Translations under genes and position numbers: made by a program
Notes under the pieces: generated by a model
Seen by the model: the letters and a program-made list of their open reading frames with translations, nothing else
What the model was told of the DNA's origin: nothing
Database searches by the model: none
Source: Brachionus manjavacas
Lineage: Eukaryota > Rotifera > Eurotatoria > Ploima > Brachionidae
Direction: 5' to 3'
NCBI GenBank assembly: GCA_019054805.1
Contig: JAHQIY010000020.1
Location: 372,001 to 436,000, forward strand
DNA length: 64,000 nt
Shown: positions 22,356-41,114 of the stretch, piece after piece
Position numbering within the stretch: the first letter of the stretch is position 1
Layout of the letters: every line of letters starts with the position of its first letter

Positions 22356-24132
22356 TCATATCAAATGACCATACAACAGTATCAAAAATTTTTGAAATCT
22401 AGAAACTAAAATTCGATTTTGACAAGTAAGGACTATAAGAGAAGTTATGACAATGAGACTAGTTATAAGACATACAGAAAAGGTTATCAGACTAAAAAAG
22501 ACAGTCAAGTTGAATTTTGTTTTATGTGCATGCTTAGAGACAATTTGGGTAACACAAGGTGCTGGGATGTTCGATTCATGATCACATTTAAAAGAAATGA
22601 TACTAAACTTTAGTCCATTGGGACAATTGCCTCTATTGACTGTTTTTGAATTTTCACACTTAAAAAAATCCGCGCAATTATTCTCAATATTTGGATAATA
22701 GCCGTTTGGTAATGAGCTACATCGATCTTTTTCCTCTTTACTAAAAGAACGATTCCCACAAAAAACATCTTTAAATTCCTTGCAAGTTTTAGACTTTTCA
22801 TCAAAAAGCTTTTTATCAGAACACCGCATTTTTTTTACCTTATTGTCCTTGCAATAAAAATAACCTTTGGGCGCAATTTTTCTTATTTTTTAATAATTTC
22901 TACCTAAATTTACCTTGGCAATCGTCTATATTGGTTAGAGAACCATTAAAATTACATTTATCGCCTTCACTGATTCTCTTTGATTCCTTGGAATTAGATG
23001 AGCTAGAGTTTTCTTCATTTTTGTTTTTGGTCACAGATTTTGCCTTTTCCTTGTCCTCTATCCCTTTAAAAATTAAGCTCATATTCCAAATTCTAATTGA
23101 ACCATCAGTACACCCGCTAGCCAAATCACCATTGTTAAGTACTGCCAGTGATTGCATATATTTTGTTTTAACAGGATCTGTAAAGGTCGTTTTTAAGCTT
23201 CCATCATTTGTATTCCAAATTTTGATGGTTCGATCCAAAGACCCACTTGCCAAGTCGCCATTTTTGAGCACTACCAGGGATCTAATCATATAGGAATTAT
23301 ATCTCGCTTTATCAGGGTCTGTAAGGGTCTTTTTCAAGCTTCCTTCATTTGTATTCCAAATATTAATTGTCGAATCAGTTGATCCACTTGCTAAGTCACC
23401 ATTGTTAAGTAGTGCAAGTGAACGAATGGTACCTGAATGACCAGTCAGAGTCCTTTTTAAGCTTCCATTATTTGTGTTCCAAATTTTAATTATTTTACCT
23501 ATTCCACTTGCTAAGTCCCCATTTTTGAGCACTGCAAGGGGCCCAACCCATTCAGAACTATCATTTAGATTCATTTTTAATCTTCCATTATTCAAATTCC
23601 AAATTTTAATTGTCCTATCACTAGATCCACTTGCCAAATCACCATTTTTAAGTATTGCAAGTGACCAAATTACGCCTGAATGACCAGTCAGAATCCTTTT
23701 TAAGCTTCCATTATTTGTGTTCCAAATTTTAATTGTCTTATCAAAAGATCCACTTGCTAAATCGCCATTTTTTAAAACTGCAAGGGATACAACTCTTTGT
23801 GAATGACCAGTAAGATTGAATTTAACACTTCTATCATTTATATTCCAAATTTTAACTGTCGTATCTCTTGATCCACCTGCTAAGTCACCATTGCTAAGTT
23901 GTACTAGTGAGAAAACATCACCTGAATGACCATTCAAAGTAATTTTTAAAATTCCTCTTTTTTTATTCCTAATATTAATTGCACGATCATCTGATCCACT
24001 TGATAAATCACCATTGTTAAATACTGCAAGTGACTTTACTTCTCTTGAATGATCTAAAAGGATCCTTTCCACTTCACAATTGAAGATAAAAAATGTAAAA
24101 ATTTGATATAGGATAATATAATTCGCATCCAT
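22356..24132 (-). CDS. Secreted/membrane WD40 propeller with two chitin-binding (CBM14) domains, copy A
   Basis: Exons 24132-22914 and 22864-22356, with a 49-bp intron and phase 1 kept, give 575 aa. The N-terminus (residues about 4-20) is hydrophobic like a signal peptide (YIILYQIFTFFIFNC). Eight WD40 repeats follow, about residues 25-340, each with an NGDLASGS core and ending KIWN. A charged Ser/Lys linker leads to two peritrophin-A/CBM14 domains of six cysteines each (for example DCQGYFYCKD and CSSLPNGYYPNIENNC). Then comes a hydrophobic span near the C-terminus (SLITFSVCLITSLIVITSLI) and a short tail. CBM14 domains need disulfides, so the propeller should face the lumen or outside, which is unusual for WD40 proteins. 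A role in cuticle, lorica, gut lining or recognition is inference. Its paralogue lies inverted at 36287-37859. Confidence 0.88.
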
Positions 24133-24476
24133 TTGGCATAAGATAATTTTATTAATTTAGAAATTTGTGAGTTAAACTCAATTTATTTAGATTACTAAGT
24201 ATTAAAAAAATTCAAATAGCTAGGCTTATAATTTTTTTATTTTGTTAAAATTTAGTTTTAATCATAATTTCTGAAAAATTTTCTGAAAAAAATCCTTATT
24301 TATAATTTTAGATTTGATTATGTAATTTTTTGAAATTGAAAAATTTATTCCTCGTTTCTATTTTCAAAAAATAAAAATTAAACAAGTTTTTTTCTAATTG
24401 AAAAAAAAGATAGATTTAATACGATTTAATACAGTTACTTAATACGAAGAGATCATTTTGAAGTTGAGTCGATCCT

Positions 24477-24798
24477 AATTCATTCTTACTAAAAAAAACC
24501 CAATATTTTCAGTCGTCTGCATATGATATGGACTTAGAGAAGTCAGTGCAAATGATATTGATTAAGTTTCCATTATCGACCTCATATGTTACTTTGTCAA
24601 CAAACTCAATTAGATTTGTGGTGCATGATTTGCCTGGCATAAACCATGCTGCTTCTCGTTGATTAACTTGTTCATTAATAAGAAAGTCATGATTTCATCC
24701 CTTAAGATTTACTTCATTACTTTACCAACTATCGATGTTAATGAGACTGGTCTATAGTTTTTGGCACACGGTTATAATGGTAATCTCAAAAATACCTC
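24477..24798 (-). pseudogene. LINE reverse-transcriptase fragment with internal deletion
   Basis: The minus strand reads KNYRPVSLTSIVGKVM, a stop, then a frameshifted part with GKSCTTNLIEFVDKVTYEVD and CTDFSKSISYADD. These are the first RT motifs of a jockey-like element. The palm motif YADD follows DFSK directly, whereas in intact enzymes more than 50 residues separate them, so an internal deletion has joined the two catalytic motifs. Dead copy. Confidence 0.7.
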
Positions 24799-24842
24799 AA
24801 CTTTAAAAAAATGATAACCCAAGCTATCATTTTTTTAAAGTT
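24799..24842. repeat. Perfect 18-bp inverted repeat, 8-nt loop
   Basis: aactttaaaaaaatgata (24799-24816) is exactly mirrored by tatcattttttaaagtt-type sequence at 24825-24842. It lies directly at the upstream edge of the LINE RT fragment and could mark an insertion or deletion junction, or form a hairpin. Confidence 0.8.
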
Positions 24843-25169
24843 TTTTTAACAATATTAAAATAAAATTCTTAATCTTGTAAGGTATATTTTTCTGTTTGAA
24901 TTTAAGAGATTTAAACAAACTCAAAAACATAAGTTAATACTTAGTCTGCATTTTTATATCACCTTGATTATAATTAAATTTTTTCTAAAACAATTGAATC
25001 ATACGTTAAGTACTAACATCGTAAACTCTTTGTCAGAGTTGCTTTAATTCAGTCGTTGACTTAATTTATTTGGTTAAAGAAAACAAATTTTTAATTTAAA
25101 TTTATTTGTTTAATAAAAATTCGGAGTCTAAAGAATGTGTAAATTTTTAAAAAATTGTTTTTTATAAAA

Positions 25170-25286
25170 TTAATAAAGTCCATAGCATCTGAAAACATCT
25201 GTGTATGGATAGGCACCATAGAGACCAGTGCCTGGATAGACCAAACCATTAAATGGATAAACAGCGTAGTCACCAAAAAAAGTCAT
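25170..25286 (-). CDS. Gly/Tyr-rich micropeptide, 38 aa
   Basis: An uninterrupted 39-codon frame starts ATGACTTTTTTTGG and ends TAT TAA. The peptide begins MTFFGDYAVYPFNGL, contains GLYGAYPYTD and ends CYGLY. It is rich in Tyr, Gly, Phe and Pro, has one Cys, and no signal peptide. Its reality is supported by a homologue on the opposite strand 400 bp away that shares MTFFG-Y---YPF-GL-YP, GLYGAY and YTD. TATA-like sequences lie upstream (TATAAATAA, complement of 25323-25331, and TATAAAC near 25345). An AATAAA on the minus strand follows about 60 bp after the stop. Function unknown; tyrosine/glycine-rich peptides occur in cuticles, eggshells and adhesives. Confidence 0.7.
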   Translation of the reverse strand: MTFFGDYAVYPFNGLVYPGTGLYGAYPYTDVFRCYGLY

Positions 25287-25686
25287 TTTTGTTTTTATTT
25301 TAAATTTCACTCGATCTAAAGATTATTTATAAACGTTTTTTATGTTTATACTAATCAAATTTAATTAGTAAAAAAAAAAAATAGAAAAAGAAATAATTTT
25401 TGATTTTATATGATGACATTCGAATTTTATCTAAATATGGAATTCAGCAATAAATTAATTTTTTGTTTTATTTAAAATTTTTAAATTGATAAATGATAAA
25501 TAATTTTTTTAATGCAATATTTAGTTCTATTTCTAAAATTGACAATTATTGTTGTTGATTTATTTAAAAAGTATATCACTATTCAGGTAAATTTATGATA
25601 TCATATTTGAGGTATTATAAATAGAAGTTGAAAAAAAAATTCAACAAAATCGGCCTTGTAAAACAAAAAAAAATTCCATAACAAAA
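25287..25686. promoter_or_regulatory. Shared divergent promoter of the two micropeptide genes
   Basis: The 400 bp between the two start codons is AT-rich. It holds TATAAATAG at 25616-25624, 63 bp before the plus-strand ATG, and TATAAATAA on the minus strand at 25331-25323, 37 bp before the minus-strand ATG. Good TATA boxes on both sides suggest strong, regulated expression in a divergent pair. Confidence 0.55.
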
Positions 25687-25827
25687 ATGACCTTTTTCGG
25701 TAATTACACTTCTTATCCATTCACTGGTTTGACCTATCCATTCAATGGTCTCTATGGTGCATATTCATTTGCATCTTATGGAGTCTGTCCATACACTGAT
25801 GCCTACAGATACCATGGACTTTTTTAA
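25687..25827 (+). CDS. Gly/Tyr-rich micropeptide, 46 aa
   Basis: A complete frame runs from ATGACCTTTTTCGG to TTTTAA. The peptide begins MTFFGNYTSYPFTGLTYPF, continues NGLYGAYSFASYGVCPYTD and ends YRYHGLF. Compared with the divergent copy it has an extra eight residues (SFASYGVC) before PYTD. Similarity between the copies lies in the coding part, with changes that keep the Tyr/Gly/Phe pattern, as expected for selected proteins. An AATAAA follows at about 25914. There are no recognisable domains. Likely a small structural or secreted-by-other-route peptide; this is inference. Confidence 0.72.
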   Translation: MTFFGNYTSYPFTGLTYPFNGLYGAYSFASYGVCPYTDAYRYHGLF

Positions 25828-25914
25828 ATCAATTTAGCTGACTAATGGACAAAAAGAAGAATTTATTGATTGTGTCCATTTATGATTAAAATAATTTTAT
25901 TTATATTTTTTAAA

Positions 25915-27183
25915 ATAAAATATCGGAGTCTTATTATAACTTAATTTTTTAATTAAAAAAAAATATTAGAAAAAATTTGTACAAAAATTAACATGGAAAT
26001 AAATTATAATTGAAATGGGATTTTTTTATTTTTAATTATGATTTTTGTATTCTTTTAAAATTCAAAAATTATGACCAATTTTGATTAATTTTTTATTCTG
26101 AACTTAAATTAAAAAAAAATCACTTTAAATTTTAATTTTGTACAAATATAAAACACGAAAAATAGTGGTCTAAATTTATGCAAAAGTTTTTAGATAAATT
26201 GGACTATAAAACAATACTCTTTAATTCTCTAAAGTAATTTTGTTCACTCATTTTTTTTTCTCAACAAAATAGTTCATTGAACGATTTCAATTAATTGAAA
26301 TTTATAAAAAATTCAATTTAAAAAAAATAAATTTAAAGTGACTTTAGAAGCAAAGTTTGCTTTTATTTTAATTCAGAAACAAAAAAAACAAAATCTATAT
26401 TTTTATTTTTATAAATTAACTAGAAAAATCGACTCAATTTAAATTATTATTTTATCAACATAGTAAACACACTATGATCTTAATTTAATTTATTCTATTT
26501 TTAAACCATAAAATGAATTCAATTAAAATATTTTTTACTCTCTCTCTCTTTTTATTTAATTTAATTAGAAATATCAAGTCCAGGCTAAAAAAATTTTATT
26601 TTTATTTTTTAAAAATAATCAATAGAGTTCAATTTAAAAACATGGCCAATTTATCATTTTCTCTTTGTCAGTCAAAGTTGATTAATTATCCGGAGACAAT
26701 TGACGCCAAAAATCAATGGGTTCCCTCCTAATACAAATTTGTTGTTGCTGTTTTTAATTTATGTCAAGAGAGTCATAGTCTCGATTGGAAACGAGGAGGG
26801 CGCCTTCTATTTCACTAGCAACTATTTAAATTATTTTAATTTTATGAGAAAGGGCACCCAAATTGTAATAATTACAAGTTTCAAGCCATGGAGAAAAACG
26901 AGTTTTATGTATGTGTGCTTTGTTGTTATTGTTGTACTTAAGAGAAGCTTTCTATTTCTTTAAGCTCTTTTTTTTCTTTTTTTTTTTCTATAATTTTTCA
27001 TAAATTTGCATTCAACAAATCTAAAACTAGCAAGCAAATTTCAACTCGTTTAAAATTCTCTCTTTCTCACAAGCATAAAAGAATGTAATAAATAAACTTT
27101 GAAAAAAAATTTTTTTTTTTAAATTTTTTAAAATAAAATATCTGATTTAAAAAAAATTTCCAGAGATTCTTGTTTAGATCGAG
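25915..27183. other. Intergenic and promoter side of the DNAJB6-type gene
   Basis: AT-rich DNA with open frames at 26513-26731 and 26700-26963 that look accidental: low complexity, hydrophobic, no splice logic. The part 26640-26960 is more complex (cggagacaattgacgcc, gaaacgaggagggcgcc) and probably belongs to the promoter or 5' UTR of the chaperone gene that begins at 27184. Confidence 0.4.
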
Positions 27184-28167
27184 ATGAGCCCTAGATGTTA
27201 CTATGAAATATTGGAGCTCAAGAAAACAGCCACTGAACAAGAAATAAAAAAAGCGTACCGAAAGCTGGCGCTCAAATGGCACCCGGACAAAAACCCATCG
27301 AGCCAGCAAGAGGCCGATGTCAAGTTCAAAGAAATATCGGAGGCTTATGAGGTGCTGTCGGACAAGAGCAAGCGGGACATTTACGACCGGTACGGCCGCG
27401 AGGGGCTGGAGCGCGGTTCGTCCTCGACCAGCCAGTCCTCTAGGCGCTCGCAGAGACGCGAGTTCGACTTTGACCCGTTTGACTCATTTCCGTTCGGTGC
27501 GCGCGGCTTCACCTTCCGCTCACCGCAGGAAATATTCGAGGAGTTCTTCGGCACCAGCAACATATTCGATCTGTTCGATGAGGCGTCTTTGTTTGGACCC
27601 CATCGCGGATTTCGCCGACAGGCAAACCGCGACGCATCCAACTACCAAAACAAGCGGCACAGAACAACACATTCGAACCGCGATCCACACCATCATATCC
27701 ACAACCATCACCATCACCATGCGCATCACTTGAATCCGCATTTTCCGTCGACTAGCTTAATGCAGTCCATCTTCGGCTTTCCGGAATTCGGCCATGGAAT
27801 CATGTCGTTTTCTAGTTTTTCTCAGCCCGACTCAAGCATGGTCAAAAGCACCTCCAAATCCACCCGTGTTGTTAATGGAAAAAAATTCGTAACAACCAAG
27901 TAATTATTTTCTTTTCTTTTGGGGTTTGAAATTTTTCTAAAATAATTTAAAAAAAAAATTGAATTTAAATAATTTTAATCTGAGAATAAAAAAAAAATAA
28001 TCATTCTAAAAAAATTTATTTATTAATTTATTTGTTTTTTAAAAATTAAATGTTTTTAAAGAATAATGGAAAATGGAGTGGAAACAGTGATAACAGAAGA
28101 AGATGGCGTGGTTAAGTCAAGGACTGTTAATGGTATACCTCAATCGTTAGAATACCGGACCAAATAG
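27184..28167 (+). CDS. DNAJB6: DNAJB6/DNAJB2-type Hsp40 co-chaperone
   Basis: Exons 27184-27899 and 28062-28167 (intron 162 bp, phase 2) give 273 aa. The J domain occupies residues 1-70, with the HPD motif in KWHPDKNPS and a [10 protein letters not shown] helix. A Phe/Gly/Ser-rich middle ([16 protein letters not shown]) follows. Next is a His-rich stretch (about residues 155-180, [14 protein letters not shown]). The C-terminus ([13 protein letters not shown] then [17 protein letters not shown]) matches the C-terminal domain of DNAJB6 that is needed for anti-aggregation activity and oligomers. The J domain stimulates Hsp70 ATP hydrolysis. The His run is longer than I would expect in vertebrate forms. 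Coding GC is well above its surroundings. Confidence 0.9.
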
Positions 28168-31100
28168 ACAGATCGAGACGCTTCATTCGAGATGAGAGTC
28201 AGGGTTGATTTTTTTCACTTTTTTTTATTTTTGATGGTACCGAGAATGTAAATTGTGTAGTTACAACGACCAGATATGGTGCTGCTGGTCTAAATTTTAT
28301 TAGAATAGTTTAAATTTATGATTCAATCGATTCTGTTTAAATATCAATTTGCTTATGTTTAATTTTGGTTATGGGCTGGAAGAAAAAATTAATCTTGGCT
28401 TTTTGTCTCTTTATTTTAAAGATCTGTTTTTAAATAAATTTTTAGATTTTTTTTCTAAAAAAAAATTGATTTTTGTTGAAGATTTTTCTCGAAGATTTTT
28501 ATTTTGACATTTTGATAATGTTGTGACAATTTTTATTTATAACAACACAAAAAAAACAATTGTTTATTATGAAAAAATCTTTTCTTCTTAAAGAACCAGT
28601 TTAAATCATGTGATGATTTTTGTAGAAATGATACTTTAAGATCTGTCAAGCCTTAAGCGTTTAAGTTTGATGTGATCGAATTTTACATTGTTGCCTTTTC
28701 CAATTTTTACCAAAGGTAAATAACAAAAATAGTGCTGCTGGTCTTAAACAATTTAATGTGGTTAAAAAAGGAATTTTTCTTTTACTTCTTGAATCCTTAA
28801 ATTAAAATAGAAATTCAAGTCGAATATATAGCTGAGTAACTAATATATCTTGATTCGAATTATTTTTTTTATGTTGATTGTGTTTTTGGTGAAGTATTGT
28901 TAAATAATCATTCAAATAATAATAAAGATTTTCTGCACAAAATGGTTTCTTTGACTTAATGGTTTGGCGAATTTTTCAACATTTTTTACAAAAGATTGTT
29001 GAATTTAAAAAAAATTTTTTAGACGTTTTTTTTTTTAAATTTTTGTTATGCATCTTATGAACAAGAAGCCAAAAATAAGTTTACAATAGCTCAAAAAAAT
29101 TTATTCAAACTTTTGCCAACTTGAAAATTGAAAATCACATTGAAAATTTTTTGTTTAAAAAAAACATTTTTAATCTACACCGTCAAATTTAAATGAATAA
29201 TAATTAAAAATGCATGCTAGTTTTTAATATCTGTAATTTCTGATTTTGTCACTTGTCTTACTATGATTTTATTTTTCCAAATTAGATGTTAAAATTTCTT
29301 ATTTTTTTTAATAATATTGATCAATTCAATTCACTTTGTAAAAGGTATCTTTAAAAAAAAGAATCAAAAAAAACTAATCATTTTGAATTGCATCTATAAT
29401 AATTTTTTTAGGGCTTGTAGTTTAACTAGTACCGAATGTAGTTCAAAATGGTTCAATTTCACCCTCGACCAAAAAAATTCTCCAAAAATGACTTTTGAAT
29501 ATTTTCAATTTAAATCAGTTTTTTTTTCACACTAAAAATAAACAAATTTATCATGAGAATTGAGAATTAATCATGCAATAATATAATTTTAAAATAAATA
29601 AAATTTTTTAACAAAAAAAAATATTTTTTTTTGTATTTTTAGTGATCATGTCAAAAATTTAGATTAAAAAAATAAGTTGCCTTTTAAAAAAGCTTTGAAA
29701 ATATTATTTAAATAACTTAGAGTAGAATTTAATATAAGGTTCAACCAACTATCCGGAAATATAATCGAAAGTTATGCATTTATAAATTTTTTTAGACTTT
29801 TTAAGATAAAAAATGCCGTTCATGCAATTTTGTTTCTTTAAAAATATTTAAATCATTTTTAATAAATTTTTGTTGATAATGATCATTAAAATTTGATTCA
29901 ATGTGCATTTTAATTAAAAAAATCAGGTTTATCTAATTCTTGAACTCTCAGATTTTTTCAATAAAAAAAAGATGAGCAAAAAGAAAAATTATTTCTCATA
30001 TAAAAGATAATTTTTAATTGCTAATAGATTATAGATATATAATATGTATTTTTAGATATATAAAAAATTAAGTTTAATTAATATCTAAACTATTTTTGAG
30101 ATTTATTTATTTTTGGTATAAAAATGAACTCATAATAAACAAAAAAAAAACAAAAATTAAAAAAATTAATTAATCTTTGTTTTCTTTAAGTTTTATTAGT
30201 TTAACCACTGTCTATTAAAATTTTTCGCTTTTCACAAAGTTTTACTTATCTTTTTCGATTTAACTCACTTTTTTTAAGACTTGTAAAAATTAAAATTTTT
30301 GAGATAATAAATTTTGTGATCTACTTATTCGCCCGACTTGTTTTAGAAGATAAATTTTATGTTCAAAAATATCTATCTTAATATCTTGATCTTCAGTTTA
30401 ATTTTTAGTCTTTCTTGAAATTTACCTTACAATTTGTTAGTTTTCTTTCGTAATTTTTTAGTTGTAAAAAAAAAGTGTTTCTATTAAGTAGTGGAATTTT
30501 AGTCTACACGAATTTTTGGCAAATTTTCCATGATAAAATGTGGGAATAAATTAAAAGATAGAAATAAATTATTGTTAATTAATTGATTCAGATTGAAAAT
30601 CTAAGTTTTTTTTTTAATTAATAAATTTAAAAAAATTGTTATTTTTGACTCTGTTCAATGATAGCTTCTTCTTAGATTGTTTTAAGAATAAATAAACAAG
30701 GGTTCAAATATATTTAATGAAAAACATTGACACATAGGTCTATTTTGCTATCAAGCAAAGCAATCAATTATCAACTTTGTTTTTATTTACCTTTATTTAA
30801 AGAAATAAAAAATTTAAAAATAATAGTATTTGAATTATTCAAGTTAACTTTGTAACTTTTTAATTTTGATCTTTGGAGTACAATCAGAATTTTATTAGAA
30901 ATTAAGAATATAAGCCGAGCGATCTATTTGAACTGATTTAATTTAATTAAAAAATTCTAAATTCTAAAATAAATAAAAGAAAATATTCATTTAATAAATA
31001 TCCATTCAATAAATTGGTTAATTTTTTTGTTGGATTACTTTTTTGGAAGCATCAAAACTTAGAGATAAAAGAGAATAAAATTGATTGAGAAGCTATCGCA

Positions 31101-32165
31101 GTCTTTTCAGTATTTAGCTCAGAGTAACAAATTTTTTACTTTTTTCTTCTTGGCAAAAAAATATCACTACCATGTTATTTTCAAATAAGCTGAATTAATA
31201 CACAAATTAATTTCTTTAGATAAAGATGTAAAATCATCAATGGAACATTAAACAAAAAAGGTGTAAATTTTTTAAATTAAATTAACTAAACTTTTTTTCT
31301 TTAATCTGAACCTAAAAGTTCCTTAGTAAAATTCGATAATTTTATTTTTTGTTTCAGGAAGCAAAGAGGGCCGCATTATTTAACACTTTTATTCAAAAAT
31401 AATAAATAAGATAAAGCATTTAAGATTGTAAACAAGACAATAAGTAAAGTTACTCGTGAACGATTTTATCATAAATGATAAAATCTTTGCTCTCTTTATA
31501 TTAATTAAACAACCGCTTGAAAAATTTAATTTAGATGCAATGGAAAATATGATTAAAAGCTAGTTCAAAAATTTACTTTTTTCAGTTTTTAGAATTTTTA
31601 AATAAAAATTTTTTCTTATCATTGAGAACATTTTACGATTCTGATATGTTCAAATTTAGAATTTTTAAAATTGGTATTTAAAATTTATGAGCTGACAATT
31701 AGATTAATGGTGGAATACAAAAATTTTTTCTTGTTGATATTTAAAACTAGTTTATAGTCTAAAATCGAATGATTCTAAAATTTTTTCTTATCGAGTATAA
31801 AGAAGCGATAAACTCTGTTTAGATCTCGTGCTATTAAGATAGAAATACTAATGGGGTTATTTTTAATTTTTTTTCTCAGTTGAATTTGGAATATTTTTTT
31901 TCAACTTCAAAAAAAGATAAAAACCAATTATTGACCATCAATAATCAAATTTTGGCTTAAAAAAAAAACCAAAGAAAAAAATTTTTTATGATAATTTAAA
32001 ACTTTTATTTTTATCGTTTCAATTTTAAGTTAAATTCATCTTTTAGCTTTATTAGAAAAAATATAAAACTATCGAAGCATTAAGAACTGGATGCAGTGGT
32101 GATTTGGTTTTATAAAATATAAAGGAATGAAATTTTTAATTTAAATTGAAGAAAATTTCGACAAA
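28168..32165. other. Intergenic, about 4 kb
   Basis: AT-rich. The first 750 bp may be 3' UTR of the DNAJB6-type gene; an AATAAA stands at 28921. No other gene is supported. The open frame at 29317-29535 is low-complexity. Confidence 0.45.
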
Positions 32166-33418
32166 ATGGCTTCGATAAATTTAAACAACAATTTAATTGT
32201 CTCGTCCATCAACAACAACTACAAATTTGCCTTTTTTGGACTTTTGTTGGTCATTTACTTCGCCTGGATGGACATAGCATTGTTCATCAATTTACAAAGA
32301 TGGACATCGCCAAGCACCACAGAGAACAAAACAGCCAAATACACTAACACAGAGACATTTACCACATTTAAACCTCTCTCTGTCAAACTGATAATGGTTG
32401 ACCATGGCACGCATTATGTTCACGACATTTTGGCAAGATTCGCAGAAGACAATCTTCATTTTAGTTCCATATTTCCGTGGGTCACCGCCAATCTAGTCAG
32501 CTATGCCGGTCTCTTGGCGGCATTGATCGGCAGTCGTCTGATAATATCAGATAAACCAATGCATTACAGAATTGGTGCCATTTTGTTCGAGTTGAGGAAT
32601 CTTGCTGACTCGCTGGACGGTGTGGTCTATAGGTCCCGGAAGAGACAGCAGGACTTCGGCCGAATTGGTGTCTATCAGTCAAACTACGGCTCCTATGGCT
32701 ACAATGTTGACGTCATTTGTGACGGACTTGCCGGATTGTTTTTCTGCACTGCCATTCTAATCAAATTTCTCAGGCATTTGCCTTCAAAATGTAAAAAAAA
32801 TTTTTTTAATAAATTTTTTTATTTTTATTTTTATTTAGACCCTGCTAATATTTTAATTCGAAGACCTAGGTCGAGAAATTCTAGATCTAACAGTGGTGAA
32901 ATGACATATGAGCTGATAGAAATGGACTATCCGGCAGAAAGTAGTTTGGAATAAAGATGGAAAATTTTTTAAATTATTAGTTTATTGATAAAGATTCATT
33001 GGAAAGAACCAAGAGTGAAGAGCATTCACAGCGCAGACATGTTTCTTCTTTCCAAGTGAAGCTCATAGTGATCTCGTTTGGTTTTAGGCTTTTGTTCACT
33101 GGTCTCATTTGGGATCATTTTGTGCACAAATACCACGATTTATTGATGGTTTTTTCCAATAATCCCAATTTACGCAAAATGCAGGAGCAAACATTTAAAT
33201 CAATTAGTATGTGGCTGATAATGTGGTTCTGGCGATTGGGAAATGCATGTGCCATGCTCGAACATTTGTCTATCACCACTTTTTTTGGAAAACTTTGGGA
33301 CTACTTGGTGTTTACTAACTACATCGGATGGGTCTATTTAATTGTACTTAGTCTTTTGACTCAAATACACTACATCGAATTGTATGAGTCATTCAATACA
33401 TTTGCAGCTTTGTCTTAA
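32166..33418 (+). CDS. CPES: Ceramide phosphoethanolamine synthase
   Basis: Exons 32166-32790, 32839-32940 and 32994-33418 (introns 48 and 53 bp) give about 383 aa. The third acceptor (ataaag) keeps phase with a weak donor at 32941 or 32944. The CDP-alcohol phosphotransferase signature is present in the variant form of this family: ADSLDGVVYR, then GYNVDVICDG, giving D-x2-DG-x2-YR...G-x3-D-x3-D with Tyr in place of Ala. The flanking LFELRNLADSLDG resembles insect CPES. There is one N-terminal membrane segment (about residues 21-42) and several more later. The enzyme transfers phosphoethanolamine from CDP-ethanolamine to ceramide in the secretory pathway, making the invertebrate counterpart of sphingomyelin. 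A decayed duplicate lies at 41.1-41.55 kb. Confidence 0.82.
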
Positions 33419-33573
33419 ATATTTACAATTTCTGATAAATTGTTCAGTATTATGTTTTTATTTTTTATTTTTCAAGTTCCTTTATTTCGTTTCTTTTGGA
33501 ATTAGTTTCGATTGAGTTTTTGATGAAAAAATATATGCCTGTATATTTATCACAAAAATATTTATTTTATTTG

Positions 33574-33579
33574 AATAAA
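33574..33579 (+). terminator. Poly(A) signal AATAAA of the CPES gene
   Basis: AATAAA lies 156 bp after the stop codon, followed by a T-rich stretch. It is the first good hexamer in a plausible position. Confidence 0.5.
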
Positions 33580-33599
33580 ATTTTGCCATGTTTATTTTG

Positions 33600-36286
33600 A
33601 AAAAAACTTTTTTTTAGAGCTAGTTAAAAATTTACGATTAATTATAAAAAATTACATTCGAATTCTAAAACCAAGTATTGGAAAAAATTTTTTATAGGAT
33701 AAATTGGATGCATTAGCTGATACAATTACAATTTGCTGAAAATATGTTAGATTTAAAAAATTGATTTTTCATATTTATTTGATAACCAAAAAAAGATTTT
33801 TCAAAAAAAATTTTTAAGTAAAATAATTGTTAAGACTTTGATATAACCGTGAAATTTTGTAAGATTTCAGCATCAAATTAATTTTCTAGTTTGCATGGAA
33901 ATTTTTCCATTAAATAAAATAGTTTGTTCTATAATATTTATTATTAATGCTAAAATTTAATTAAAAATTATTCAATCTTGTATTAATATATTATCTTTTT
34001 TTAAATCTGAACTAAAATGAGAAAAAATCTAAAATATTTTTTTTTGAAAATTATTATAATTATTCTATATGGATAAAAAAAGAAAATTTTTGATTTTTCT
34101 CTATCTATTAAAAAAGATTCATTTAACAAAAAGTTGACTTAATGAAAAAAAAGTTGCTTTTGCGTAAGGATTGAACACAGTTTAAGATTTAATTTGGGCA
34201 AATGATTTGACTAAAAATCCACTGATACTTCCAATTTCTTTAATTTTTTAAATTTTAAACAATCGCTGATATAGTCTCATGTTTTATTAATATTAGTCAC
34301 TAAATTATTTTTAATTTTTAATCAGAAAGAAATAAACCTTGAAGCAAAATAGAAATTTTTATTTTTTATTTTAATTACCAAAAATTACTAATCCCTAAGT
34401 TCAAAAAAAGCTTTTATCACTAAAAATAAAAACGGGTTTGAATAAATAATTTTTTACCTGCTCTAAAAAATTTAAATTCAAAAATCTACAAATTATTAGA
34501 TAATATTTTTTTAGTTGTTAACAATTCTCAATTCATGTAAACTAATCTATGTATTTTTGGGAATTATTTTTGATTTAGATTGCTTTTTGTTTATATCAAT
34601 ATGAATTTTGAAACAATATAATATAATGATACAATGTCCAATATTGTCTATCTATTATTTATCTTTAAAAAAAATCCTTTTAAAATGTTTTTAAGAGCCA
34701 TAATCAATTAAAGAAGAAAAAATAATCTAATGCTAATTGTAATTAGAGCTCTGACTTTGTAAATGGAAGATAAAGATCTGTACAAATAAAGTTTTTAGGG
34801 ATTTATTTTTATGAAAATTTGCTTTTCAAGGAAAAGTTGGAAATCAAAAACCTGTTTACTCTCTCAATCGGCTCAATTTCATACTACCATTAATGGTAAT
34901 TAAAATCCTTCCAATATTCAAGTCAACAAAAATCCCTTTTTTTATAACTAAAAGCTTTAATTTTTAATTTAGATTATTATTTTTATTTTTTATTAATACC
35001 ACCTGTCGTCTAATTTTAAATCTATTAATTTTTTGATCTCTCGATAAACTGTGCTTATCAAAAAATTTTGCAGAACAATTTTTAGACTTACAGTATAAAA
35101 AGTTATTTCATTTTAAAATTTTTTTTTTTTTTCTTTGTTCCAAAATTCACAATGCCATGAAAAAGTATTATTTTTATTGAAAAGATCAAACATTTAAGGT
35201 TTAAATAATAAACAAAAAAATTAAGCTTCTTCATTATTTTTATTGTATATTAAGTCCTTTTATTTTGCAGACAGACCACTTCCGTGTCTACTTGAAAAAA
35301 TCGACAACAATTAAAAAATCCTAAGCCAAAAAGTCTTTAAGAACCCATATTTCTTGACATTATAAAATTAATAGAATATTTTCATACCAAACTTTACCTT
35401 AAAAAAAGAATAAAATTAATGATAATTTAAAAATTTATTTTTATCTCTCCTATTTTAGCGTCATCAGAAAATAATAAAATCATTCTAGCGTTGAGGACTG
35501 TTATAGTTAAATGTTTAAGTTAAAGCTAAAACAAAATTAACGTTTTTCTGATAGATAAGATTTTTTTGAGGATCTGGTTTATCAAAATCTTTATCTCATT
35601 TGATTATAAATTAAAAAAGTAATGTAATTTAAACAATTTTTAAAATTTTGAGAATTTTGTGAAAGTTCGAAGTTTTTAGCCTGAAAAATGACCAAGATAT
35701 GCCATTTCTAAGCATCTGACTCTATGAAACTTTAAGCTGCCATATTTTCTTAACTAATTGTCACATAAATAAAGTAATTATATATTCCGATCAGCTAAAT
35801 TAGTTTGTTTAAACTTTGATATCAATCATTTTTATTACTATAAATAATAAATCTTAAATTAAAATTTAAATCAGAAAAGTTGACGGATGATGCAACTTCA
35901 AAAGGAAAGATTCTGAGCAATTCGTCGGTGTTTCCTAGTCACCATTGCACATTAATAAGTAAAGAATTTTCTACTTAAAAACCAAATAAAAACTATGTAA
36001 ACCATATAACCACAATAAAAATAAAAATGATTGATATAAAGATTTAAACAATTGATGAATCTTTTAGTTAGAAATTTTATTAAATTTTAAATTTTAAAAA
36101 ATTTGATAATTGAATCTTCGATCAAAAAAAAACATCTTTTTCAAATTTCATTATAAAAGCTAATTACGCACATAATTATAAATCTTTTATTTAGCCTAAC
36201 TATTTGATTTATTTTTGATACTTAGAAATCTTAATAAATGGAGTTCAAGTTACAAATTTATAAATTAATAAAAAAATTTTTGACAA
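33600..36286. other. Intergenic, about 2.7 kb
   Basis: AT-rich, without supported genes. The last ~90 bp (36195-36286) resemble the sequence just upstream of WD40 copy A (24220-24133 on the minus strand), so the duplication that made the two genes included part of the promoter. Confidence 0.5.
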
Positions 36287-37859
36287 ATGAAAGTGAATTT
36301 TTATCAAATTTTTACAATTTTGACCTTCAATTGTTATTATGAAGCAAGAAAGATCCTTTTTGGACATTCAGAGCGAGTATGGTCACTTGTAGTACTTAAC
36401 AATGGCAATTTAGCAAGTGGATCACAAGATCGGACAATTAAAATTTGGAATAGAAACAATGAAAGCTTAAAAATGACTTTGAATGGTCATTCAGGTGATG
36501 TTTTGTCACTAGCGGTAGTGAACAACGGTGATTTAGCTAGTGGATCAAGTGATAAAACAATCAAAATTTGGAAAACAAACAACGGTATTTCTAAAATGAC
36601 TCTGAATGGTCATTCTGATTGGATTTGGTCCCTTGCAATGCTCAAAAATGGCGACTTGGCAAGCGGTTCAAGGGATAAAAATATAAAAATTTGGAATTTA
36701 AATAATGGAAGCTTAAAAATGACTTTGAGGGGTCATTCAGGTGACGTTTTGTCACTAGCAGTACTTAGCAATGGTGATTTAGCTAGTGGATCAAGTGATA
36801 AAACAATCAAAATTTGGAATTTAGGTAATGGAAGTATGAAATTCACTCTAACTGGCCATGCAAATTCGATTAACTCACTTGCAGTGCTCAAAAACGGCGA
36901 CTTGGCAAGTGCATCAGATGATAATATAATTAATATTTGGAATACAAATAATGGTAGTTTAAAAAAGACTTTGGGTCTTTATAATCGAATTGGGTCCAAT
37001 ATTGAATTTTGCAAAATTGCAGTGCTCAAAAATGGCGACTTGGCAAGTGGGTCTTTGGATCAAACAATTAAAATTTGGGATACAAAAGATGGAAGCTTAA
37101 AAAAGACTCTTACAGACCCTGATAAAACAAAATATATGCAATCAATGGCAGTACTTAACACTGGTGATTTGGCTGGCGGATATACTGATGGTTCAATTAG
37201 AATTTGGAATATGAGCTTAATTTTTGGAGGAATAGAGGATAAGGAAAAGAAAAAATATAAAAAGTCAATCTCATTAAATTCCAAGGAATTAGAGAGAAGC
37301 AAAGAAGGCGATAAGTGTAATTTTGATGGTTCTGTAATCAATATAGACGATTGCCAAGGTAAATTTAGGTAGAAATTATTAAAAAATAAGAAAAATTGTG
37401 CCCAAAGGTTATTTTTATTGCAAGGACAATAAGGTAAAAAAAATGCGGTGTTCTGATAAAAAGCTATTTGATGAAAAGTCTAAAACTTGTAAAGAATTTA
37501 ACAATGTCTTCTGTGGAGCTCGTTCTTTCAGTAATGAGGAAAAAGATTTGTGTAGCTCATTACCAAACGGCTCTTATCCAAATATTGAGAATAATTGCAC
37601 GGATTTTTTTAAGTGTGAAAATTCAAAAACAGTCAATAGAGGCAATTGTCCCAACGGACTAAAGTTTAGTATGATTTCTTTGAAATGTGATCATGTATCG
37701 AACATCACAGCACCTTGTGGTACCAAAATTGTCTCTAAGAATGCACATAAAACCGAATTTAACTTCACTATCGTGTTTAGTCTGATAACGTCTTCTATAT
37801 GTATTATAATTTGTCTAACAATCTTAACTTGCCTTATAGTTTTAACTTTCCAAAATTGA
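36287..37859 (+). CDS. Secreted/membrane WD40 propeller with two chitin-binding (CBM14) domains, copy B
   Basis: Exons 36287-37358 and 37408-37859 (49-bp intron, same place and phase as copy A) give 507 aa. Residues 1-19 (MKVNFYQIFTILTFNCYYE) act as a probable signal peptide. Seven WD40 repeats follow, for example HSGDVLSLAVLSNGDLASGS, each ending IKIWN or IRIWN. Then come a Lys/Ser linker and two six-cysteine CBM14 domains (DCQGYFYCKDNKVKKMRCSD and FKCENSKTVNRGNCPNG parts). The C-terminus has a membrane-type hydrophobic segment (SLITSSICIIICLTILTCLI), ending FQN. Several NxS/T sites lie in the second half. It has one repeat fewer than copy A and a shorter tail after the membrane segment. Poly(A) hexamer AATAAA at 37901-37906. 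Confidence 0.88.
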
Positions 37860-40497: not shown

Positions 40498-40582
40498 AAT
40501 CAGTGCTGTAAATGAAAATTAATAATCCAATATCATTTTAAAACTTTTTATTAAATAAAATTTTTATTTTTTAACATTTAAA

Positions 40583-40866
40583 ATTTTATATTTTTTAGCT
40601 TTAAAACACTCAGCGACACCTTGTGGCATAGATTCAATAACTACTTCACTAAAGACTTTCAACCATTCGTCAAAAAGAACGCTTTTTAAATGCTCTACTG
40701 ACGTAATTTTTGTATTGACCATTTTTTGGTCAATATATGACCTTAAATTCTCTATTGGATTGAGATCAGGTGATCTTGGGCACCAGGGGAGAACTGTTAT
40801 TTGTTCTTGAAACCAATCTCGAACGGAATGAGTAGTATGTGCACTAGCGCCAACCCATTTTAAAAT
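40583..40866 (-). pseudogene. Tc1/mariner-type transposase C-terminal remnant
   Basis: The minus strand reads HTTHSVRDWFQEQITVLPWC directly followed by PRSPDLNPIENLRSYIDQKM, the catalytic SPDLNPIEN block with the third acidic residue of the DDE triad. A short end (WLKVFSEVVIESMPQGV) and a stop follow. The preceding DNxxxH motif is degraded to GASAH, and no N-terminus is present, so this is a dead fragment of about 95 codons. Confidence 0.8.
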
Positions 40867-41114
40867 CCAAAATTTTAGGATAAAATAATTGTTCTAAACT
40901 TTGTTGAGTATTTTTTTTGTTCAATTTTATCTGTTTTTTTTTTAAATTAGTTCTGGAGTGTTCAGAAATTTTTTTTGAACAATCTATATATCAACAGAAA
41001 GCTAATAAAATTATCTTTAAGATGGTATAGTTAACATTATATGTTAATCGATTTTAATTTTAGATTTCTATACCTTATAACATTTTTTTTAAATTTTTTA
41101 GTAATGCTCTAAAC

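Follow-up and report, generated by a model that had tools for sequence, protein, structure and literature searches.

WD40 propellers are textbook intracellular scaffolds, and a pair of inverted genes in the rotifer Brachionus manjavacas raises the question of whether such a propeller can also work outside the cell, on one chain with chitin-binding domains and a membrane segment, and what it would do there. We analysed a window of 64,000 nucleotides (C20:372001-436000 of a 114-Mb, 61-contig genome; feature coordinates below are window positions) and extended the comparison to the rest of that genome and to the literature. The answer that we prefer, and that we consider about equally likely to be right or wrong, is that the two products would be membrane-anchored extracellular proteins, putative adhesion or recognition receptors at a chitinous surface.

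Gene 1 lies on the minus strand and encodes 575 amino acids, and gene 2 lies on the plus strand and encodes 507. In both, a hydrophobic N-terminus precedes the WD40 propeller, a polar linker connects the propeller to two CBM14 domains, and a C-terminal hydrophobic stretch of about 30 residues follows. In each gene a 49-nt, phase-1 GT-AG intron interrupts the first CBM14 domain; a stop codon sits between the two open frames when unspliced, and joining the exons regains the six-cysteine pattern of that domain. The features are as follows.

22914 to 24132, minus strand: gene 1 exon 1, with hydrophobic N-terminus, eight-repeat propeller (counted by eye), linker, and start of the first CBM14 domain (gene model, Pfam).
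23083 to 24072, minus strand: gene 1 WD40 propeller, limits approximate (Pfam, blade detection).
22865 to 22913, minus strand: gene 1 intron, 49 nt, GT-AG, phase 1, giving an in-frame stop if retained (same place in five genes).
22356 to 22864, minus strand: gene 1 exon 2, with the remainder of the first CBM14 domain, the second CBM14 domain, hydrophobic C-terminus, extra C-terminal tail, and stop (gene model, alignment).
22758 to 22956, minus strand: gene 1 first CBM14 domain, first to last cysteine, intron included (Pfam, alignment).
22554 to 22721, minus strand: gene 1 second CBM14 domain, first to last cysteine (Pfam, alignment).
22422 to 22514, minus strand: gene 1 C-terminal hydrophobic span, transmembrane or GPI signal (read directly, alignment).
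36287 to 37358, plus strand: gene 2 exon 1, with hydrophobic N-terminus, seven-bladed propeller, linker, and start of the first CBM14 domain (gene model, Pfam, AlphaFold2).
36347 to 37207, plus strand: gene 2 WD40 propeller, whose strands span 21-307 in the AlphaFold2 model (AlphaFold2, PDB matches).
37359 to 37407, plus strand: gene 2 intron, 49 nt, GT-AG, phase 1 (gene model).
37408 to 37859, plus strand: gene 2 exon 2, with the remainder of the first CBM14 domain, the second CBM14 domain, hydrophobic C-terminus, and stop (gene model, alignment).
37316 to 37514, plus strand: gene 2 first CBM14 domain, first to last cysteine, intron included (Pfam, alignment).
37551 to 37718, plus strand: gene 2 second CBM14 domain, first to last cysteine (Pfam, alignment).
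37758 to 37856, plus strand: gene 2 C-terminal hydrophobic span, transmembrane or GPI signal (read directly, alignment).

The architecture of both genes is real. Pfam WD40 (PF00400) scored 151.9 bits in gene 1 and 173.1 bits in gene 2 (cut-off 27), and CBM_14 (PF01607), a disulfide domain, scored 60.2 and 60.1 bits, respectively, over two stretches each (cut-off 22.1). By eye, gene 1 has eight repeats and gene 2 has seven. AlphaFold2 modelling of gene 2 exon 1, the only one of the two folded and run on an alignment of seven sequences (this exon and six paralogs), returned 28 strands forming seven four-stranded blades at a mean pLDDT of 80.9, with low confidence in the N-terminus and linker; the top PDB matches of this model were designed and natural WD40 propellers, including 2ymu and 5yzv. 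Ten exon-2 cysteines are invariant in all seven aligned sequences, two of which are CBM14 genes with no WD40 match among the matches listed, while the first cysteine spacing of domain 1 is 11 residues, short of the consensus that we take to be 13-20. The original prediction of an inverted gene pair with a 49-bp intron, each gene joining WD40 to two six-cysteine CBM14 domains and a C-terminal hydrophobic span, is thus borne out by Pfam, alignment, direct reading, and the gene models drawn from the sequence.

A large inverted segmental duplication was rejected because the inverted similarity between the genes (minimum 40 nt) ends ~13 nt beyond the gene 2 stop. Several other features lie nearby. 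Between the two genes is a DnaJ-domain gene (27181-28170, plus strand; Pfam DnaJ, 99.7 bits) that by eye continues after an intron, and 32145-33418 (plus strand) encodes a membrane protein that matches CDP-alcohol phosphatidyltransferase weakly (E 0.004, not reaching the cut-off) and that we take to resemble ceramide phosphoethanolamine synthase. Two 46-codon ORFs at 25170-25310 (minus strand) and 25687-25827 (plus strand) form an inverted pair, with arms of 89 nt that are 82% complementary, and encode small Tyr/Gly-rich peptides that share sequence and are possibly cuticle or gland peptides. Apparent mobile-element remains were also seen, namely a degenerate stretch upstream of gene 1 (24480-24830, minus strand) that by eye resembles a non-LTR reverse transcriptase remnant, one translated frame of which is stop-ridden, and a transposase fragment at 40564-40893 (minus strand; DDE_3, E 1.1e-6). 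A bdelloid spliced leader sequence used as a query gave 0 matches.

The search for the same architecture elsewhere in the genome, which had been proposed as a check, returned 14 matches for the exon 2 query and 172 for the exon 1 query, and identified three further paralogs with both exons in open frames.

Contig C20, 470-472 kb: L009, same architecture, 49-50-nt intron at the same place.
Contig C20, 232-234 kb: L010, same architecture, 49-50-nt intron at the same place; one additional CBM14 stretch shows in the alignment.
Contig C4, 130-131.6 kb: L012, same architecture, 49-50-nt intron at the same place.

Contig C20 thus holds four of the five genes. All ten pairs among the five had dN/dS below 1, both in the propeller (0.48-0.76) and in the CBM14 part (0.24-0.68), as under purifying selection; the N-terminal segment had dN/dS near 2 in two of ten pairs, over 18-20 codons that offer too few sites to interpret. 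Because the three additional paralogs share architecture and intron and dN/dS is below 1 in every pair, we regard the five as a maintained protein-coding family rather than an artefact of annotation. Conservation is stronger in the CBM14 part, since in 10/10 pairs the propeller has the lower protein identity. Synonymous divergence (dS) was also higher in the propeller in eight of the ten pairs, tied in one, and lower in one, and it was higher in all six pairs within contig C20; genes 1 and 4, for instance, have identical introns, a CBM14 dS of 0.05, and a propeller dS of 0.60. From these values, the CBM14 exon and intron on C20 look homogenised while the propeller diverged, although non-homologous blades aligned together could inflate propeller dS. 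As for where the exons came from, a CBM14 gene adjoining gene 4 (g4b) has no WD40 match among the matches listed, a tail that is 60% identical, and, read by eye, a GT-AG intron at the same place, and it may be the source of the CBM14 tail. No exon 2 relatives were found in viral contigs, and prokaryotic WD40 matches were at most 44% identical among the best 80 of 82, the best-scoring one, at 44%, being to a Nostoc MAG.

Taking architecture and family together, we infer a route by which these proteins might work. The hydrophobic N-terminus would direct the protein to secretion, with the WD40 propeller folding outside the cell. Two CBM14 domains, placed between propeller and membrane, would tether the protein to chitin, and its attachment to the cell would fall to the hydrophobic span at the C-terminus, whether a transmembrane segment or a GPI signal. 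The top face of the propeller, its most variable surface, could then take a protein or peptide ligand, and the molecule could serve at a chitinous surface as a receptor for adhesion or recognition.

The main rival to such a ligand-binding surface protein is a structural role, in which the propeller would be a scaffold tying matrix proteins to chitin and the apical membrane, in jaws, lorica, gut lining, or eggshell, and would not recognise molecules from foreign sources or mates. Tandem CBM14 domains adjoining a membrane anchor would suit a cross-linker of this kind, as would the similar-tailed CBM14 genes of the same genome that have no WD40 among the matches listed (L047 and g4b, whose last two domains and tail resemble those of the five-gene family at 39 and 60% identity), and positive selection on the top face is not shown. 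However, the propeller diverges faster than the anchor and its repeat number differs between genes (7 vs 8 by eye), which is less expected of a fixed part, and we consider a purely structural role possible but somewhat unlikely.

The original prediction overlooked that, by its sequence, the pair belongs to a five-gene family within a larger secreted-looking WD40 set. About 39 loci, some visibly truncated (e.g., C3:2131 and C3:2140 kb), have a WD40 propeller that either follows a hydrophobic N-terminus or neighbours a PAN-like, Cys-rich, WxxW, or CBM14 module, a count that also takes in the five CBM14 genes, L011 and L021, which are without CBM14, and L019, L025, and L029, which have the hydrophobic N-terminus only. 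Often, such a WD40 exon comes after an exon that encodes the hydrophobic N-terminus and a small cysteine module: a WD40 match came next within 1 kb for at least 20 of 22 PAN-like exon matches, and came next for at least eight of ten Cys-rich exon matches (seven within 1.3 kb, one at 3.1 kb) and at least one of four Mucin2_WxxW matches. L021 keeps the hydrophobic tail while its CBM14 part is missing. We name the first of these exons PAN-like only, because Pfam PAN_3 gave E = 3.6 on the one N-terminus tested, the AlphaFold2 pLDDT was 67.5, and no PDB entry matched the model below E 0.001, with PAN/apple entries among the weak hits only. By eye, one PAN-like WD40 protein (L020) begins with a hydrophobic stretch similar to the one in the CBM14 genes, which suggests common descent. 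Individual members of the set show their own peculiarities. L025 (C3:79.6-82.3 kb) is one cysteine-poor ORF of 918 aa in which a hydrophobic N-terminus and 19 WD40 blades were detected; L013 (C13:2910 kb) has a two-blade unit three times, almost unchanged, a sign of recent blade duplication; and L026 and L027 (C31:482 kb and 542 kb) are PAN-like WD40 genes of almost identical sequence that lie 60 kb from each other and face opposite ways. It is tempting to see in these ~39 genes a secreted or surface repertoire of constant anchors (CBM14, PAN-like, Cys-rich) with interchangeable hypervariable blades, serving extracellular recognition analogous to that of fungal NWD proteins, but we hold this only tentatively and think it unlikely.

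The pattern of blade variability bears on that idea and on the closely related one that the proteins recognise non-self, symbionts, or mates in a variable manner, their blades turning over rapidly like those of fungal NWD receptors, though on the extracellular side. Across 181 of the 290 detected blades, drawn from 23 secreted-type sources, entropy was highest at blade positions 5, 22, and 7 (3.99, 3.83, and 3.68 bits). By the rules of PMC3419727, they correspond to R1-2, D-1, and R1, the main top-face contact residues of WD40 propellers. In 1373 blade pairs at 0.72-0.80 identity, the four highest nonsynonymous rates fell at 5, 22, 7, and 24, flanking V6 and D23, which matches the placing of the selected codons 7, 9, 25, and 27 around 8 and 26 in Podospora NWD genes (PMC1805685). 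Against this, the order of sites shifts in closer blade pairs (22, 7, 5, 4 in 73 pairs; 22, 24, 25, 36 in 14 pairs), and a tree-based count of 41 sites left none whose nonsynonymous excess stayed significant once corrected (lowest p = 0.015, uncorrected, at site 22). In that same count the hotspots change at close to the neutral rate, and the three top positions recur in cytosolic WD40 controls (11 control loci in the tree-based count and six in the pairwise counts, with L019, L025, and L029 omitted from the pairwise counts only). Positive selection on the blades, and with it diversifying recognition, is therefore not shown. The variability appears to mark a binding face; we judge variable recognition decidedly unlikely, and retain a surface protein with a ligand-binding propeller as the preferred reading.

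That reading depends on the propeller being outside the cell, for which the signal peptide is the weak point. The first 20 residues of genes 1 and 2 are hydrophobic, but hydropathy alone did not tell the two from control WD40 ORFs, and an approximate von Heijne-type matrix (penalty softened, cut-off 3.5) does not firmly confirm the signal peptide originally predicted. On this matrix genes 1 and 2 scored -1.7 and -0.8, below the cut-off and among the values of the 17 control WD40 ORFs (-7.9 to 4.5), while genes 3, 4, and 5 scored -1.3, 2.8, and 3.7, so that only gene 5 of the five exceeds the cut-off. Among sister genes, PAN-like exons were below 3.5 in 11 of 14 cases and above it in three; L011 scored -0.7, L021 2.9, and six other family members 4.9-9.1. 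Density of N-glycosylation sequons was rejected as evidence of export, because the excess of the secreted class over controls (1.33 vs 0.53 per 100 residues) is fully explained by composition, both values lying below shuffled expectation (1.83 and 1.13, respectively).

Cysteine content in the propeller core provides the better evidence. It was 0.51 per 100 residues (47 in 9189) in 31 secreted-class WD40 ORFs vs 4.13 (267 in 6468) in 22 others, with ranges that do not overlap (0-1.67 vs 2.36-6.64), in a comparison of 53 of the 55 WD40 ORFs of the loci retrieved; we divided these ORFs ourselves by a secreted-looking N-terminus or upstream exon, and as related genes they are not independent points. 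One ORF (L034) was classed as secreted on the strength of a Cys-rich exon 3.1 kb off, and the two left out for ambiguous N-termini (L030 and L032) are both cysteine-poor (0.72 and 0). Because these propellers share their chain with CBM14 disulfide domains and are poor in cysteine relative to other WD40 proteins of the genome, an extracellular or lumenal propeller is supported, in agreement with the placement first proposed. The same two facts would suit any oxidising compartment, including the lumen of the ER, Golgi, or secretory granules, but ordinary secretory compartments generally offer no chitin for CBM14 to bind, which makes a lumenal site of action very improbable. An error of gene modelling that fused WD40 and CBM14 exons from different transcripts, as the stop codon between the open frames might suggest, can hardly be the explanation, since the join regains a six-cysteine CBM14 domain in five genes at one conserved splice position and g4b, by eye, keeps a GT-AG intron there.

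How do these genes, read as membrane-anchored surface proteins, compare with known systems? They resemble CBM14/peritrophin-A proteins (PF01607) in their tandem six-cysteine domains over the cut-off, and differ in having a WD40 propeller as the N-terminal partner. Highly repetitive WD40 propellers (2ymu, 5yzv; PMC5587647) share the near-identical blades and are among the best structural matches, whereas the genes here join the propeller to animal extracellular modules; the terms "signal peptide", "secreted", and "chitin" are absent from the text of PMC5587647. Fungal NWD proteins (HET-D/HET-E) likewise have repetitive WD40 blades whose most variable residues occupy equivalent top-face positions, but they are intracellular NACHT receptors, while here NACHT was not among the best 25 of 32 and 33 Pfam families for genes 1 and 2, respectively, and positive selection is not significant. 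In cyanobacterial orthocaspases, too, WD40 is presumed outside and joined to a transmembrane span (PMC7475262), though these are bacterial, have a cytosolic protease-like domain, and are given no chitin-binding domain in the passage on them. Propeller or WD40 proteins also occur in secreted animal material, namely a protein listed as a cell-surface glycoprotein with "WD40/YVTN repeat-like" domains in a snail shell proteome (PMC4023409) and one protein with a WD40 domain in a tick cement proteome (PMC9734129), with no CBM14 on the same chain given in the passages concerned. In the consulted text of other sources, only TIR-NB-ARC-WD40 combinations are described for amphioxus (PMC2575513), WD40, propeller, PAN domain, and apple go unmentioned in a survey of rotifer secretory lectins (PMC8878817), and PMC7456325 and PMC11219742 hold nothing relevant to WD40-CBM14 or secreted animal WD40. 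In a full-text search of open-access papers aimed at this architecture, no entry listed named a WD40-CBM14 or secreted animal WD40 family, which fits the earlier statement that no described receptor or matrix protein with this order of domains was known.

If these propellers are extracellular, the working range of the WD40 fold would widen to chitin-binding, membrane-anchored chains, with sister genes placing it on other extracellular modules. In a small invertebrate, the genes would then also provide concrete candidates for surface molecules that serve adhesion, recognition, or the building of matrix.
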